Source: Isosphaera sp.
GTDB lineage: Bacteria > Planctomycetota > Planctomycetia > Gemmatales > Gemmataceae
Reading direction: 5' to 3'
DNA length: 64,000 nucleotides
NCBI GenBank assembly: GCA_013822345.1
Contig: PNKH01000029.1
Span: 1-64,000 of the forward strand
A program made the position numbers and the translations under genes. Positions 47,234 to 56,372 of the stretch are shown piece by piece; position 1 is the first letter of the stretch; each line of letters opens with the position of its first letter. The notes beneath the pieces were generated by a model. It had not been told where the DNA came from. It ran no database searches and was given only the letters and a program-made list of their open reading frames with translations.

Positions 47234-49111
47234 TCACCCGTGGAGTAAGCCGCGGAAGAACCCGACCCCGCCGCGCCACGGCTCGCTCCCGTCGGACGGC
47301 TCCGGCAACCCGACCAGCACGGCCCGGTCGAGGAGCCGGTTGAACGCCTCGCACGACGTCTCCGGCAGCAGCATGCAGGCGTGGCACGCGGCGAGGTTCA
47401 GCCGCTCCGACGCCGACTGCAGCCCCTCCACGCACAGCGGGTCCGACGAGCACCACGCGGCCGACCGGACCGCCCGGGCGACGGCCGGCACCAGCCGGTC
47501 CCCCCGGGCCTGCCGGCACAGCCCGCCGAGGGTGCCGTCCGCGTCCGCCGACGCGGTGTACACCAGCACCCCGCACATGTCCCGGTCCCCCTCCCCGACG
47601 TACAGCCGCTCCCGCAGCGCCGCCGACGAGTACCCGCAGTCGAGGGCGAGCTGGCGGATCAAGGCGTGGGCAAACGAGTGGACCAGGAGCAGCCGCGGGG
47701 TGACCGGGGCCGGCGGCTCGCCCCCGCCGTGCCGCTCCCGGAACTCGTCGGCGTACGCCTGCCCGACCCGCGCCGCCCGCCGCCGGACCTCGCCCCCGGA
47801 CGGCGACCCGAGCCAGGCGTCGAGCGCGTCCCGGCGGAACTCGAGGAACACGCCCTCGCCGCGCACCTCGGCCGCCGGCAGCCAGTTCTTCCGCCCGCGG
47901 GCGATCGGGGCGAACGGCACGTCCGGGCCGGTGCTCTCCCGCCAGTCGGCCGGCGGCTTCAGCCGGGTGAACGCCCGCAGGGCCCGGACCTCCCGCAGCC
48001 GGGTCACCCGGACGACCCGGGAAAACACCGCGGCGAGTTCCGGCGGGACCGGCTCCGGGTGCGCCTCGAACTCGCTCCGCCCGGCCGGCGCCGCCCGGTC
48101 GGCGGTGAGCTGCCGGTACTCGTCGTACCGCAGGGCGTCCGGGCCGTTCCCGGCGAGCGCCGTGAGGCTCCGGTTCACCTCCGCGAGCATCGCGTCCGGG
48201 GTCATCCCCTGGGCCAGGTGGAGGTCGTTCGCCTCGATGATGGCGCGCCGCTTCGCGTCGGTCGGGGCGGCCCGGAGCCGGGCCCAGTCGATCGGGGCGA
48301 TCCGCTTGTGGAACTCGTGCGCCCACGGCGGGATGTCGAGGGCCGAGACGACGACCGGGAATTAGACGTTGGTCGCCCCGCGGAGCAGCGCCCGCGGCTC
48401 CTCCGAACACGCCTCCTCGTCCCCGAGCCACGGCCGCCGCCCGCGGCAGGAGAGCCCCGGGAACGCCTTGCCGGAGAAGCAGCCGTCCAGCGACCGCTCG
48501 GCCCCGCACGCCGGGCAGCCGAGGAGGAGCCCGGCCAGGCCCGGGCCGGTGGGGGTGAGCCGGAGCGGGCCGTCGGGGTTCGCGCAGCCCGGCCGGTGGC
48601 GGACCCAGACGTGCCACGGGAACTCGTCCAGGTGGCCGCGGCGGCAAGCGGTGACGAACCGGACCGGGACGACGTGGGCCCGGCGCGGGGTCCGGTGCGA
48701 GCACTCGCCGCAGTACAGGGCCGGGTCGCCGGGGTCGGCGCTCCAGTCGTCCGCCCGCCGCAGCACCCGGCAGCCCGGGCACCGGAGCCACTGCGGGAAC
48801 CGGACCCCGACCAGCCGCTGCGGCAGGGTGTACCGCCCGTCCTCGTCGGCCGGGACCGCCGGCGGCAGCCGGAACCCGTCGACCCCGAGCACGTCCTGGA
48901 GCCGCGGCTCGTTGATCACCTGCGGGTGGTTGAGGCCGTCCTGCCCGTCCTGGCCGGCCGACTCGTCCCAGGCGTCGAGCCCGGCGGCGACGACCGACAC
49001 CGGCGCCCCGCCGCGGCCGCCGGCCCGGAAGTCGACGACCGCCCCCGGGCCGAAGGTGGTCACCACCTGGCTGCGGCGCATCTCGCCGAGCTCGAGGAAC
49101 CGCGGCGGCAC
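47234..49111 (-). pseudogene. DrmB-like DUF1998 protein, broken by in-frame TAA
   Basis: The reading frame spans 624 codons plus two stops. A TAA at 48362-48364 splits it into an N-terminal part (48362-49111, 249 residues) and a C-terminal part (open up to 47234; its first ATG is at 48205). The protein reads across the stop as GATNV-stop-FPVVVSALDIPPWAHEF, where relatives have an aromatic residue (NVYFP). The N-terminus RRSQVVTTFGPGAVVDF and Cys clusters (CPGC, YCGEC, CRRGHLDEFPW) and C-terminal LLVHSFAHALIRQLALDCGYSS and DPLCVEG are DUF1998/DrmB-like. DrmB works with the DrmA helicase in the DISARM phage defence. GTG start. Confidence 0.82.
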
Positions 49112-49125
49112 GGGTCAAACCCCTT

Positions 49126-49238
49126 CGTAGGGTGCCGTCGAGCCGGGCGCTTCGCCCGGCGACGACGCACCGTTCCCCGTCGACGTAGTGGCGGTGCGTC
49201 GTCGGGCCGCGAAGCGCGGCCCTCGACGGCACCCTACG
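49126..49238. repeat. Cruciform-like triple inverted repeat
   Basis: Outer arms 49126-49142 and 49222-49238 (17 bp), middle arms 49160-49171 and 49193-49204 (12 bp) and two small hairpins (49143-49159 and 49205-49221) nest as a cloverleaf. It lies between the drmA-like and drmB-like genes and opens with CGTAGGGTG, like the elements at 35414 and 39917. Confidence 0.87.
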
Positions 49239-49246
49239 GACTCCGA

Positions 49247-52200
49247 TCACCCGCCGGGTTTCAGGCGGCTCACCAGCTTGAACGGGGCGCCCGGCTCGAC
49301 GTCCCGCATCGAGTTCGGCGTCGGCCAGGCGTCCCCGCCCGGCAGCCCGGCGGCGACCTCCCGGGCGTACCGCTCGGCCGACACCAGCAGCGACTCCGCC
49401 GGCGCCGTCTCCTTCCAGTACCCCGGATCGGCGTCCGGCCGGGCGGCCCACTCGCGGCACCGCCGCTCCCACCCGTCGAGCAGCTGCCGGAGGTGGCCGC
49501 GGACGGCGTCGGCCTCGCCGGGGTCGACGCTCCCCACCCGGGCGAGGACCAGCGGCAACACCTCGGCCTCGACCAAGGCGCGGCGGTCCGGGGTCAACTC
49601 CGGGCTCGTCGCCATCCCGCAGACGAGGTGGCGGACGAGGACCACCAGCACCGCGTGCAGCGCCTTGTCGACCGCCCGCGGGGCGAACGGGGTGACGCTC
49701 GTCGCCTCCACGTCCCGGTACAGCGACCCGTGCCAGGTGGCGAACGTCTCGTAGCACGACCGGTCCCGGGCCCGCCTGCCGTTTTACACGCACACCACCA
49801 GCCCCGGGTGCTCCCGCCCGACCCGGCTCGTCGACTGGATGTACTCCGCCACCTGCTTCGGCTGGCCGTTCACCACCATCAGCCCGAGCCGCGGCACGTC
49901 CACCCCGACGCTCAGCATGTTCGTCGCCAGCACCACGTCGTACGCCGCCGGGTCCGGGCGGCCGCGGCCGAGCCGGTCCAGCACCTCCGGGATCTCCCGC
50001 GACGTCTTCCGGCTGGTCAGCTCGTCCACCGCCCGGACCGGCCGGGCCGGCTCCCCGCGGCGGGCCGAGTAGTCCGCGACCGACGCCGGCACGTCGTCCC
50101 GGGTCATGACCAGCGCCCCGCCGAGTTCCCGCAGCGAGTTGAAGTACCCGACCAGCGTCCAGTACGGGTCGTGCCCGGCCGCCCCGGCGGCCTGGAGCAG
50201 GCTCGCGTACACCGCCTGGAGGGCGAACTTCGGGGACCGGCCGGCGGTCGTCACCCCGACGTACTGCCGCCCCGGGGCCGTGTCGTCCCGGCGGGCGAAG
50301 CAGGAGTTCGCGGCGTCGAGGACCGGCGGCGGGAACAGGCAGGTGCCACGGTCGAACAGGGCCCGGATCTGCTCCGTCGCCGCCCGGATGGTGGCCGTCG
50401 ACCCGACCACCTTCGGCCGCAGCCTGGTGCCGCCGGGCCCGGGCCGGGAGCACAGCTCGTCGACCGCGATCTCGTACAGCGCCGCCACCGTCCCGAGCGG
50501 GCCGGAGATGAGGTGCAGCTCGTCCTGGACGACGAGGTCCGGCGGGTCGCGGCCGTCGCCGCCGAACAGCACCCGGGCGTCGCGGTTGCGGGCCACCTGG
50601 GTGAACTTGTCGACCGTCCCGATGACCAGCGACGGCCGCTCCCGGTACACGTCCTCGTCGACCGTCCAGACCGGGAGGTGCGGGTCGGCCGACCCGCCGA
50701 ACTCGCACGCCTTCTCCCGGCACCGGACGCGCACCTTCCGGGGCGGGTGCGTCTTACCCGGCGGCGGGGCGGCGCCGCAGCGGCGGCACTTCGCCCCCGC
50801 GAGTTCGCCCTCGTGCCGGCACGCCCGGCACTCGTGGACGAGGTACCAGTCGAGCGCCGGCTTCTGGCAGACCGGGCAGGCGGCGAGCTGCCGCGGGGTC
50901 GCGTCGCCGGCCCCGTGGAGGTCGCGGGCCGCGTCCTCGACCCGGTTCGGCGTCGCCCCCGCCCCGACCCACAGCCCGACCGAGAACGGCACCGCCCCGA
51001 ACCGCCCCGCTGCCCCGCGGCGGAGGTGTTCGCACGCCGCGACCAGGGTGGCCGCCCGCTGGAACTGCTGGACGGTGAGGAGCCGCAGGGTGTACCGCAT
51101 CAGGACGGCGACGCCCGCCCCGGCGTCCGGGTCCGGGCCGCGGAGCCGGCGGTGGAACAGGAGGAACGCGACCAGGCCGAGGTACGCCTCGGTCTTGCCG
51201 CCGCCGGTCGGGAACCAGAGGAGGTCCATGACCGCCCGGTCCGGGTGCTCGCGCCGGGCGAGGGACGCGAGGACGAGGAGCTGGAACCCGAGCTGGAACG
51301 GTCGCCACGTGAGCCGCCGGGCGTCGGGCGGGTCGTTCCGCCGCGCCCACCGTCGTTGAAGTGCCATCGCCCGGTTGGCGAGCCGGAACGCCTCCAGCGC
51401 CGCCGGGTCCGCCAGCAGGTCGATCCCCTCGCGCATCCGCCGACTCACGTCCCGCGCCGCGGCGACGTGCTCCGCCGCCCGGGCGCGGTGCCGCGGGTCC
51501 AGCGCGGGAACCTTCGCCTCTTCCGCGGCGAGCCACGCCTCGTAGGCGTCGGGGAGGAGGGCGAGGGCCGCCCGCAGGTCGGCGACCGGCGCGGCCGCGA
51601 GCCACTCGGCGGACCGCGGGTTGAGCGCCGGGTCGGCCGTGAGCCGCTTCAAGATGTCGTCGCCCTCCGGGGAGACCGCCGGGACGACGTGCTCCGGCAG
51701 CCAGGTGGTCGCGACCTCGCGGACCGTGCCGCCCTCGACCTGCCACTCCGCCGAGCAGGTGTGGCCGGCGGCGTACTCGACCGCGTCCCGGTAGACGAGG
51801 GCGTCGGACGGGTCCTCGTCCGCCCGCCGCGCCGGCCGGGAGACGAGGACGGAGCCCGGCCCGGGCCGGGCGCGGAGCTCGACCTGGAAGAACGACGCCT
51901 CGTCGGCCCGGGCGCGGCCGTCCTGCGGCGGGTGGGCGTTGACCAGGACCGCGGTGACCAGCCGGTCCGGCCCCGCGTCCGCCGTCTGGACGCGGAGGTG
52001 CAGGCCGGGCACCGGGTTCGACGGGAGCGCGCCGAGGTCGATGACCGGGAGCATGCCGCGCGGCAGCGGCGTCGGCGGGAGCACGACCCGGTGGTCGGTC
52101 CGCCGCCAGGCGGGGCGCTGCCCCGCGTGCTCGGCCGCGGTCGCGGCGCCGGTGGCCGGGTCTTCCCACCGCCGGGCGTACACCCCGCACCGCACCTCGA

Positions 52201-52477
52201 ACACCACCGCCGGGTCGCCCGTCTCACACCGGACCGCGAACGACACGCCCGCCGACGCCGGCCGCGCCCCGGCCGACGGGGCCGCCGCGTCGGCGCCGGC
52301 GTCCTCGTCGTTCGCCCCGCCCGCCAGCTCCTCGTCCTCCTCGGCGGCCCGGGTGCGCGGCGGGGAGAGGACGCCGGTCAGGTAGTAGTCGGACGGCCGC
52401 GCGGGGAGCACCTCGTCCGCCGCGGCCGGGCCGACGAGGTCGAGGAGGAGCCGCCGGCGGAGTTCGTCGCGGACCAT
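49247..52477 (-). pseudogene. DrmA-like helicase, broken by in-frame TAA
   Basis: A 1075-codon frame (plus two stops) with a TAA at 49784-49786, codon 898 of the frame. It reads SRVGREHPGLVVCV-stop-NGRRARDRSCYETFATW, where relatives have an aromatic residue before Asn. Before the stop: Walker A LWFPTGGGKTEAYLGL, a Cys-rich zinc-finger region (CPVCQKPALDW, CRACRHEGE, CRRCG), DExH-type motif VVQDELHLISG and STSRVGRE (motif VI). After it come 178 codons including SVTPFAPRAVDKAL and TPNSMRDVEPGAPF. The family is the DrmA-type helicase of DISARM. It overlaps the UvrD-like stop by one base (TGATG). The stop removes the C-terminal domain. Confidence 0.82.
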
Positions 52478-54348
52478 CACCCGCCCCTCCGGAAGAAGCA
52501 CCACGGGTACCCGAGGACGACCGGGGCGAGGAGGAACCCGCTCGACCGGTACGGCTCGTGAAGGGCCTGCCTCCCCGGGTCGCCGTCCGCGACGGCGACA
52601 GTGCGTACCGCGAACAGGTGGAGTCGCTCGATCTTCCGCGGCTTCGTCACGACGGCCCGGAAGTGGTCGCGGAACCAGGCCCGGACCTCGAGCAGGTCGC
52701 GGCCGACCCGCGGGGTGAACTCCCCGACCCACCGCCCGGGGCGGGCGGCGAGCTCGAGCCGGAAGGCGTCGTAGTCCCACTCCTTCGAGCAGTGGGCGGT
52801 CACCCGCGCCGGGTCGGCGGCTTCGGCCAGGAGCCGCTGGGCGTCGGCGGCGTCTTCCGGGGTGGCCGCGAGCGGCGGCCGGACCGCGGCCGTCGGGTCG
52901 GTGTCCCCGTCCAGCCCGAACTCGACGGCCGCCGCCAGGTACTGGGGCCACGGCGCCCGGCGGACGCACCAGAGCCGGCCGGACGCGAGCGGGTACGCCC
53001 GCACCGCGGCGGCGTCGTGGACCCGGAGCCGCTTCCGCGGCCGGGTCGCGCCGACGTACAGCACCCGCGTCTCCTCGGCGATGTCGTCGCCTTCGCGCGG
53101 GGGCGGCGGGAGGGCGAGGACGACCTCGTCCGCCTCGCGCCCCTTCGACGCGTGGATCGTCCCGAGGATCGGGCCGGACGTGCCGCACGCGGTCGCGCAG
53201 ACCTCGACCGGTGGGCGGGCGCGGGCGAGCTGCGTCCGGACGCGGTCGAGGTCGACGCGCCCGGCCTCCCCGGGGCCGAGGCCGTACAGGGTGTGGAAGC
53301 AGCGGTCCGGGTCGTCACCGGGGAACAGTCGCGGCATCTCCCGCTCGGCCCACAGCCGCGCGAACCCGGCCTGGTCGAGGTGCCGGGCGGTGAACGGGGC
53401 GAGGAGCCAGCCGATCCAGGGGTCGACGACGACCGGGGTTCGGGCCATCCGGAGGCGGTGCGGGACGTTCGCCTCGGCGAGCCGCTGGGAATGAACGAGG
53501 ACCTCCCGGCGGTAGCGGAACAGGAGGAGGTGGTCGTCGCGGCCGCGGAGGTCGTCCGGCTGCGGGACGGGCGCCGCGGCGCGGGCGCGGAGGACGCGGC
53601 GGAGTTCGGTGTTCGCGTCCGGGTCGGCCCGGCCGAGGAGCGGGCGGGTGCCGGTGAACACCTCCCGGAGCTACGGCGAGTCGGTGCGGTGGATCGTGGC
53701 GAGCGACACCGCCTCGAACGGCGGCCCGCCGGCCCCCGCGAGGCGGGCGAGGAAGTCGGCCCCGGCTTCGTTCCGCCGCCCGTCCTCGGAGGTGAACCCG
53801 TAGATCGCCTGGCCGGGGTCGGCGAACACCGTAACCCCGCACTCCGGGCGGACGTGGCGGACCAGCCCGAGGGCGAGGGCCGCCCGGACGCCGGTCAGGT
53901 CCTGGGCCTCGTCGACGACGAGGTGGCGGAACCGGCGGAGGTAGTCGGCGACTTCATCACCGGGGGAGCGGAGGAGCGCGGCGACGGCCCCGACGTTCGC
54001 CTCGTACCCGCCGAGGAGGGACGCCTCGTCCGGGCCGAACCCCTGGTTCAGCCGGAACGCCTCCGCGTCGAGGGTGGCGAGCCGGACGGCGGCGGCCCGG
54101 CGGTCGTCGCCGACGGCCGCGGCGAGCCGGTCCCGCAGCTCGGCGACCGCGGTGCGGGTGAAGCTCAGGACGAGGACGTTGGCCGGCGGGACGAGGTGCC
54201 GGGCGAGGAGGGCCGCGACCCGGGCGCAGGCGACCGCGGTCTTGCCGGTCCCCGGCCCGGCGCCGACGAGCAGCCGGGCGGCCGGCGGGGCCGAGACGAC
54301 GGCGAGTTGGGCGGCGTCCCAGGTGGGGGCGGCGGGCGGGCGGTGCAT
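52477..54348 (-). pseudogene. UvrD/Rep-like helicase, broken by in-frame TAG
   Basis: A 622-codon frame (plus two stops) with a TAG at 53671-53673, codon 226. The protein reads ATIHRTDSP-stop-LREVFTGTRPLL. N-terminal half: Walker A GAGPGTGKTAVACAR (29-43), LSFTRTAVAELRDRL, motif II LVVDEAQDL and DPGQAIYGFT. Second half: TIHASKGREADEVVLALP (motif V) and ETRVLYVGATRPRKRLRV (motif VI). Hence both helicase halves are intact and only the stop separates them. It is the first gene of a three-gene set with the DrmA- and DrmB-like genes. Truncation removes motifs IV-VI. Confidence 0.84.
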
Positions 54349-56003: not shown

Positions 56004-56372
56004 ATGACTCGTGTCGCACGGCTGATCACCTTGGGAACCTTGGCTTCCCTCGTGGCGGGTTGCGAGACCCAGTACGCGACGGTGAAGGGCCGGGTGACCC
56101 TCGACGGCAGGCCGCTGAAGGGCGCGCTGGTGGGGTTCTACCCGAACCAGGGCCGCGGGTCGCACGGCGAGACCGACGCCGACGGGCGCTACGAGCTCAG
56201 GTACACCAACAAGAAGGCCGGCGTCCCGCCGGGGCCTTGCGTCGTCCGCATCACCACCGCGGATGCGAACACGCCCGAGAGATTGCCGGCACGATACCAC
56301 GAGAAGTCCGAGTTGGCCGAGGAGGTCAAGCCCGGGGACAACGTGTTCGATTTCGAGCTGAAATCCAAGTGA
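56004..56372 (+). CDS. Small lipoprotein, carboxypeptidase regulatory-like
   Basis: A 122-residue lipoprotein (lipobox LASLVAGC, Cys20). The remaining beta-sandwich has VKGRVTLDGRPLKGALVGFYP and GETDADGRYELRYT, the CarboxypepD_reg/transthyretin pattern. It is followed by a DUF1559 gene, as at 29237-30750 but in the opposite gene order. It starts the run of co-directional genes that diverge from the AraC-type regulator. Likely surface or periplasmic; function unknown. Confidence 0.8.
   Translation: MTRVARLITLGTLASLVAGCETQYATVKGRVTLDGRPLKGALVGFYPNQGRGSHGETDADGRYELRYTNKKAGVPPGPCVVRITTADANTPERLPARYHEKSELAEEVKPGDNVFDFELKSK

Follow-up and report, generated by a model that had tools for sequence, protein, structure and literature searches.

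The window considered here is the 64,000-nucleotide stretch at positions 1 to 64,000 of contig PNKH01000029.1, from the assembly (GCA_013822345.1) of an Isosphaera sp. of the Gemmataceae. Between positions 47,234 and 54,348 it carries three consecutive genes of a DISARM-like defence locus: a GajB/UvrD-like helicase gene, drmA and drmB, each interrupted by exactly one in-frame stop codon. A C5 methyltransferase gene on another contig (C150), which probably belongs to the same system, is interrupted in the same way. Coordinates are collected in Table 1.

Read through its stop, DrmA scores E 1.7e-275 with the NCBIfam model DISARM_DrmAS (917 bits, just below the cut-off of 950); it matches PDB chain 7s9v_A at E 2.8e-151 and is 48-53% identical to its counterparts in five intact operon relatives. 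DrmB, encoded by a separate gene adjoining drmA at a distance of 135 bp, gives E 3e-147 with DrmB_fam over residues 8-601 (492 bits, where the cut-off is 240), has a Pfam MZB match at residues 480-580 and matches 7s9v_B at E 7.7e-84. The original prediction, made from the sequence alone, had called the locus DISARM-like and had proposed searching the joined proteins against DISARM models; for DrmA and DrmB the label is right by NCBIfam, PADLOC and PDB matches alike. The UvrD-like product matches Pfam UvrD-helicase at E 4.7e-23 (best stretch residues 12-92), with UvrD_C at residues 397-443, and PADLOC GajB at E 5e-22; it is 38-39% identical to the product of the first gene of the operon at two related loci (L032 and L033, introduced below). 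To our knowledge a UvrD gene is not among the known DISARM components.

All three stops are present in the frames and at the positions first claimed for them (TAG at 53673-53671, TAA at 49786-49784 and TAA at 48364-48362), and no further stop was found in the frames of the UvrD-like gene, drmA or drmB. It had also been claimed that frame and family motifs run on uninterrupted, and they do: the family matches span the stops, no frameshift is seen, and the hexamer coding score per base, from a model trained on this genome, is similar on both sides (before/after, 0.095/0.078, 0.080/0.086 and 0.089/0.107 for the three genes). The expectation of an aromatic residue at two of the sites holds strictly for DrmB, where the 54 alignments to other sequences (some loci enter twice) have 33 Tyr, 21 Trp and nothing else, but not for DrmA, whose site aligns with a mixture of Leu (25), Phe (15), Tyr (7) and Gln (2). 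The residue at the UvrD site is variable (R, E, S, S and G in the five operon relatives). Given three stops, a distribution of one to each gene is nothing unusual (p = 0.20; for four stops in four genes, 0.08).

Table 1. Genes, in-frame stops and palindromic elements. Coordinates are those of the window unless a locus (L) is given.
Feature	Position	Strand	Description or basis
GajB/UvrD-like helicase gene	52480..54348	-	623 codons, single in-frame stop
In-frame TAG, UvrD-like gene residue 226	53671..53673	-	read in sequence and in relatives' alignment
drmA helicase gene	49250..52477	-	1076 codons, single in-frame stop
In-frame TAA, drmA residue 898	49784..49786	-	read in sequence and in relatives' alignment
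drmB (DUF1998/MZB)	47237..49111	-	625 codons, GTG start, single in-frame stop
In-frame TAA, drmB residue 250	48362..48364	-	read in sequence and in relatives' alignment
Palindromic element, three-way-junction fold	49126..49238	.	113 bp; fold z -8.4, 0/200 shuffles as good
Other full copies of the palindrome	L198 10416-10527; L199 3349-3459; L155 9351-9458; L158 7523-7622		nhmmer
C5 methyltransferase gene	L251 9520-8063		485 codons, TAG at residue 116 (C150:9173-9175); PF00145 search

The UvrD-DrmA-DrmB arrangement is found intact and in the same order in a Planctomycetota metagenome-assembled genome (L032), in Phyllobacterium (L033) and on Azospirillum and Rhizobium plasmids (L213, L214 and L215). 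All five of these relatives have single open genes, so that the case envisaged in the original prediction, the same split in the form of separate functional genes, did not turn up. A NERD helicase gene lies downstream in four of the five, L032 being the exception (tblastn); a search of the Isosphaera genome for NERD (PF08378) gave no match. Among the 149 genomes searched, DrmB matches occur in 25 and DrmA matches in 27, this genome included, and a stop inside either match was found in this genome alone (in none of the 24 other DrmB-bearing or 26 other DrmA-bearing genomes). The UvrD family is scarcer: at E 1e-20 it is present in one of 95 genomes of the taxonomic family and two of 392 of the phylum (this genome being counted in both), while at E 1e-30 it is found on five Rhizobium and Azospirillum plasmids. 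Because it is rare in the organism's own family and phylum and yet resides on those plasmids, the locus was probably acquired horizontally. Viral contigs with DrmB included no relative. The flanking regulator and sulfatase genes are conserved in the genus (about 40 kb apart in G001); a clean empty site was sought in the genus and not found, the alignments stopping at gene ends. Two other genomes show a different sort of decay. In G087, which has no DrmA match, a DrmB relative lies in two frames of 407 and 131 aa (C79:11367-12801; L025, L030), split near query residue 490, so that it is another decayed DISARM-type locus, by frameshift; G049 has short remnants beside an intact pair. In G134 (C54:658-5307; L024, L056) the DrmA and DrmB matches fall within a single open frame, 1782 aa long, which may encode a fusion of the two proteins.

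A C5 methylase gene lies near the operon in all five relatives: within the stretch examined at L032 (DrmMII-type), L033, L214 and L215 (annotated dcm), and in Azospirillum on the same plasmid, 8.4 kb from the operon when counted through the origin. It was these methylases, not the stops, that prompted a PF00145 search of the Isosphaera genome. The assembly has only one such gene, on contig C150, with a single TAG inside it; within contig C29, which holds the window, two methylases of the related loci have no match. The original statement that every gene carries exactly one stop was therefore correct for the three genes of the window and incomplete as a description of the system. The reading frame of the methylase is kept after the TAG and its second half scores as coding. 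The protein resembles DrmMII (best PDLC02648, E 5.6e-62, ranking after three MTase_II models) and is 59% identical to the methylase of NZ_MK318970, whose gene lies 4.1 kb away from the operon, and 57.5% identical to one on the operon-bearing plasmid NZ_CP029836. Nine relatives on plasmids, 50-63% identical, are each one open gene, with GAG at the site of the stop in seven, GAC in one and TCC in one; because two pairs are 94-95% identical, these are not nine independent cases. At E 1e-60 the methylase is present in five of 397 genomes, this one included, with a stop inside only here. The surroundings of such methylases vary: on plasmid P4 of Deinococcus gobiensis (L271 2414-17317) genes for an AAA ATPase and for DrmA-like and DrmB-like proteins stand divergent from a methylase-hypothetical-DUF2357-VSR cassette that is common to this plasmid, Rhizobium and Azospirillum, and methylases of this kind occur too beside Z1/PD-(D/E)XK genes.

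The gap between drmA and drmB holds a 113-bp palindromic element with the ends GTAGGGTGC/GCACCCTAC. Five full copies, this one included, and many diverged pieces were found by nhmmer in 1.97 Mb of the genome; the element is thus dispersed, in the manner of miniature inverted-repeat transposable elements. In L213-L215, as annotated, the two genes overlap; the palindrome breaks that overlap and may lower the expression of drmB.

Each truncation precedes an important part of its protein, and loss of function is therefore expected unless the stops are read. The UvrD stop removes the C-terminal helicase part with UvrD_C, the DrmB stop the MZB/DUF1998 part, and the stop in the methylase leaves little of that enzyme, taking away all that follows its catalytic PCQ motif. 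For DrmA, the Serratia DrmAB structure is informative: according to PMC9142583, the C-terminal arm of DrmA wraps DrmB and V1296 touches DNA, and protection was severely reduced or lost altogether when V1296 was mutated or the pivot arm deleted. Query residues 645-1065 align with 859-1301 of the Serratia chain, which places the V1296 region, judged from the alignment end points, at about residue 1060, beyond the stop at 898.

The reading that we prefer, with a probability of roughly three in four, is that a horizontally acquired DISARM-like system has recently been silenced by nonsense mutations, one per gene. By analogy with known DISARM, an intact system would be loaded onto phage DNA by its DrmA-DrmB complex, methylated DNA would be spared by way of the methylase, and the helicases would block or process the phage DNA. 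Recent nonsense mutations, one in each of the four genes, would have switched the system off, and a mobile palindrome between drmA and drmB would break the operon further. We infer the loss of function, the order of events, the partnership of methylase and operon, and the recent date. The original prediction had left three explanations side by side (recent inactivation, read-through, and errors concentrated here); inactivation is the best supported, this being the only one of 149 genomes with a stop inside a DrmA or DrmB match and one in which no tRNA for UAA or UAG was recognised (66 of 67 tRNAs read), whereas errors are less likely and a genome-wide change of code is very unlikely. That prediction had included neither the methylase on the other contig nor the palindrome nor the missing NERD helicase. 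How these explanations fare depends on what is found elsewhere in the genome and on the state of the four genes apart from their stops.

The assembly is a draft of 226 contigs, 95.2% complete, and the sample of it that was scanned comprises 120 stretches and 2,366,023 bases, about 32% of 7.47 Mb. A scan for stops with strong same-frame coding signal on both sides, the sensitivity of which is 58% over 1.53 Mb of coding sequence (measured in the first 1.97 Mb), picked out 45 candidates from the 1,943 stops preceded by a strong coding signal. The four genes are among them; the others are 11 TAA/TAG and 30 TGA candidates. In the ten of the 11 TAA/TAG candidates that were tested with Pfam (L137, open for 12 codons upstream, lay outside the test), no above-cut-off domain spans the stop, although at L179 the test says nothing because there is no match at all, and at L189 a weak match, below cut-off, passes the stop by six residues. 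Thus no other homology-backed in-gene TAA or TAG was found in the 2.37-Mb sample. Pfam was run on seven of the 30 TGA candidates. In two of these a domain spans the stop, and both look selenoprotein-like: an AhpC/TSA gene (L172 near 3495, plus strand) and an iodothyronine deiodinase family gene (L176 near 7291, minus strand). They serve as positive controls of the scan; a tRNA-Sec is present (L152 14518-14613), and recoding of the selenocysteine type concerns UGA only.

A companion scan for frameshifts (sensitivity 37%, 32 of 86 planted deletions) gave 11 candidates in the sample, six of which were tested with Pfam. A domain clearly crosses the junction at L153 6518 (integrase) and L186 10667 (glycosyltransferase), and does so marginally at L267 8450 (IS630-type transposase, six residues) and L203 18537 (sigma factor, below cut-off); these four may be pseudogenes, programmed shifts or assembly indels. 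At L270 the junction is not crossed, and the L164 candidate was judged probably false. The candidate at L083 near 7894 (C29 at about 71894, minus strand), at the far end of the contig that holds the window, has no Pfam match; the gene looks Argonaute/PIWI-like.

As for decoding, 67 tRNA matches exceed the Rfam cut-off, and ARAGORN read 66 of them, none with a UUA or CUA anticodon in the assembled part. The remaining one (L150 8801-8905, at C72 33801-33905) is a tRNA-like sequence scoring 38.9 bits, whose anticodon loop is enlarged by a long insertion; ARAGORN makes it a putative Arg(GCG) only if introns are allowed. A suppressor tRNA might still be encoded by sequence missing from the assembly or be brought in by a visiting element. 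Two tRNA arrays, one of 18 genes at L135 2297-4034 (C1) and one of eight at L142 5441-6152 (C43) (ARAGORN; several score low in Rfam), stand beside ordinary dispersed tRNA genes, and no suppressor is among them. Genome-wide recoding was considered and dropped: no UAA/UAG tRNA was recognised among the 66 read, and of the 1,943 stops at the end of strong coding signal 519 are TAG (386) or TAA (133), a count that includes the four in-gene stops. A change of the code is accordingly very unlikely.

The preferred reading, recent silencing by nonsense mutations, has to contend with several observations, which we gather here. In this GC-rich sequence only 2.3-4% of point changes made at random create a stop codon (4.8% if all are G:C to T:A), so that about 13-23 missense changes per nonsense, plus indels, would be expected under neutral decay. 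No frameshift was seen in the four genes. Missense load is not raised either. Alignments of 29 DrmA and 31 DrmB relatives, kept from 53 and 56 raw matches by a length and duplicate filter, have 245 columns in which 95% or more of the relatives agree; the Isosphaera proteins depart from the consensus at six of them (DrmA 5/171, DrmB 1/74) and the five operon relatives at 5, 6, 7, 11 and 8. In the methylase, 4 of 138 conserved columns differ; eight relatives have between 0 and 6 such differences, and L278, the most distant one, which was excluded from the joint-probability baseline, has 23. Under neutral decay the joint p of the pattern is 0.0002-0.05, varying with the mutational spectrum, with an assumed indel ratio of 0.05-0.1 per substitution and with the number of stops set aside because they had attracted notice in the first place; leaving out the indel term gives 0.014-0.16. 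A nonsense-only pattern thus fits plain neutral decay poorly, which is suggestive and not proof. The disruptions elsewhere in the sample are frameshift-like and those here are nonsense (p = 1/70 with four of them, 1/15 with two; a hand calculation on small numbers). Nor is the partnership of the methylase with the operon, likely as it seems, beyond question, because only two of the nine methylase loci (R. rhizogenes and Azospirillum) carry this operon on the same plasmid; a third, Deinococcus gobiensis, has more distant DrmA (35%) and DrmB (33%) without this UvrD gene, and the other six have no DrmA or DrmB match within the stretch examined. The oddity that remains is that the damage seen in the four genes, spread over two contigs, is of the nonsense type alone. 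On the other side, two of the five changes in DrmA are radical, compared with none or one in the operon relatives, a hint of some decay. A test on six-sequence alignments (45 of 618 invariant columns changed here, 13-61 of 586-634 in the relatives) has 18% of this genome's changes looking random, but with a supported range of 0-70% it is too weak to count, and the wider alignments were preferred to it.

Explanations other than decay were also weighed. The real genes might be intact and the stops made by sequence or consensus errors, for instance through oxidation damage (G to T) at low coverage. The assembly is a draft, and the changes would be G:C to T:A if the lost residues were Tyr in drmA and drmB (TAC in several relatives) and Glu in the methylase (GAG, as in most relatives), and possibly in the UvrD-like gene also. 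We give this compatibility no weight as a transversion signature: ordinary spectra make 47-55% of nonsense opportunities G:C to T:A, so that opportunity alone gives each change roughly an even chance of being of that type. Errors would, moreover, strike all genes, and would bring the same excess of missense, absent here, as random mutation. Errors throughout the genome were rejected for the sample, and because the stops fall in one system on two contigs, with none other in the sample, we consider errors an unlikely source of them. The confinement to four genes at two loci, with one UAA or UAG in each, no excess of missense and no frameshift, would suit regulated read-through, in which the system is off at rest and is turned on when a tRNA reading UAA/UAG is supplied, for instance by a phage or plasmid; phages that read TAG as glutamine are described (PMC9523058). 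However, none of the other genomes in which DrmA, DrmB or the methylase was matched carries a stop inside the match, so that the arrangement is not conserved; among the 66 of 67 host tRNAs read, none of this kind was recognised; reading UAA and UAG together would require an ochre suppressor, and inserting Gln would not match the Tyr/Trp of the DrmB site. The four-letter contexts of the stops also differ among the genes (TAGC, TAAA, TAAT and TAGG), and the absence of TGA is uninformative because TGA makes up just 93 of the 472 nonsense opportunities in the operon. Regulated read-through is thus quite improbable, and its boldest form, in which the stops lock a four-gene system at two loci until an invader brings or causes UAA/UAG decoding, so that the suppressor tRNA of a phage trips the defence, has only a very slight chance of being right. 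A stop-locked defence was not met in the titles and abstract openings of the literature searched.

Two further explanations leave the stops in place as real terminators. Each gene might be split into two functional pieces, with the downstream piece re-initiated internally: there is a GTG four codons past the UvrD stop, another immediately past the methylase stop, a GTG 25 codons past the drmA stop and an ATG 53 codons past the drmB stop, and PADLOC has models for short DrmA (269 positions) and DrmB (314 positions). Yet the genes of the five operon relatives and the nine methylases are undivided, the DrmB of G087 is divided elsewhere and the remnants in G049 are short, neither matching this split, and restarts in drmA and drmB would lose conserved sequence. 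Since it is improbable that four genes of one genome would be split coincidentally, the idea is far-fetched. Selection for loss, finally, would suit the low missense load: keeping the core of DISARM when no adequate methylase or partner is at hand may be costly, and here the NERD gene is missing and the methylase is unlinked and broken. According to the available passages of PMC9142583, the ATPase of DrmAB is stimulated more by unmethylated than by methylated DNA, and methylation status and a trigger loop are proposed to account for the sparing of self; those passages state no cost. One knock-out would be enough, however, and four would be needed only if each protein were costly; frameshifts would be expected as well. 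There is accordingly little to recommend selected loss over the simple silencing of the system by nonsense mutations.

If the system has indeed been inactivated in this way, the locus is a clean snapshot of the loss of a multi-gene defence, with every component found hit and otherwise hardly decayed; it would suggest that defence systems are lost as units, and the order of loss becomes a question that can be asked. If the stops are read, they would represent a new way of gating immunity, tying defence to the genetic-code tricks of phages. In either case, annotation would record the genes as fragments and overlook the system. The genes bear the marks of pseudogenes, early stops that remove important parts, in one genome only and with intact relatives.

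Compared with known DISARM systems, the locus has DrmA and DrmB (by NCBIfam, PADLOC and the Serratia structures 7s9v/7s9w) in the order drmA-drmB, and its genome has a C5 methyltransferase with DrmMII-type matches. It differs in that a GajB/UvrD-like helicase gene comes first, the methylase is on another contig and all four genes are broken. No drmC (PLD) or drmD (SNF2) domain was found by Pfam in 14 other frames between 41.5 and 62.7 kb (12 of these are predicted genes; the small predicted gene at 56040-56372 and the rest of the genome lay outside the scan, which had no drmE model). ARMADA type II, as described in PMC12458937, likewise combines a YprA-type helicase, a GajB-like UvrD helicase and a methyltransferase; there the helicase is BrxHII-like, the methylase PglX-like and the UvrD protein endowed with a RelE-like RNase domain, whereas here both DrmA and DrmB, the latter encoded separately, are of DISARM type. 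Domains of a PglX-like methylase or BrxHII-like helicase did not appear in the neighbouring frames scanned (Pfam, with no specific model). A DISARM-like operon with GajB/UvrD, and with NERD in four relatives, was not found described in the available parts of PMC12458937 or of the literature searched. Against the UvrD-DrmA-DrmB-NERD operons themselves (L213, L214, L215 and L033), which are intact, have overlapping drmA and drmB and are followed by NERD, the Isosphaera locus stands out by its inserted palindrome and its lack of NERD; the first three genes and their order are shared, at 29-53% identity gene by gene.

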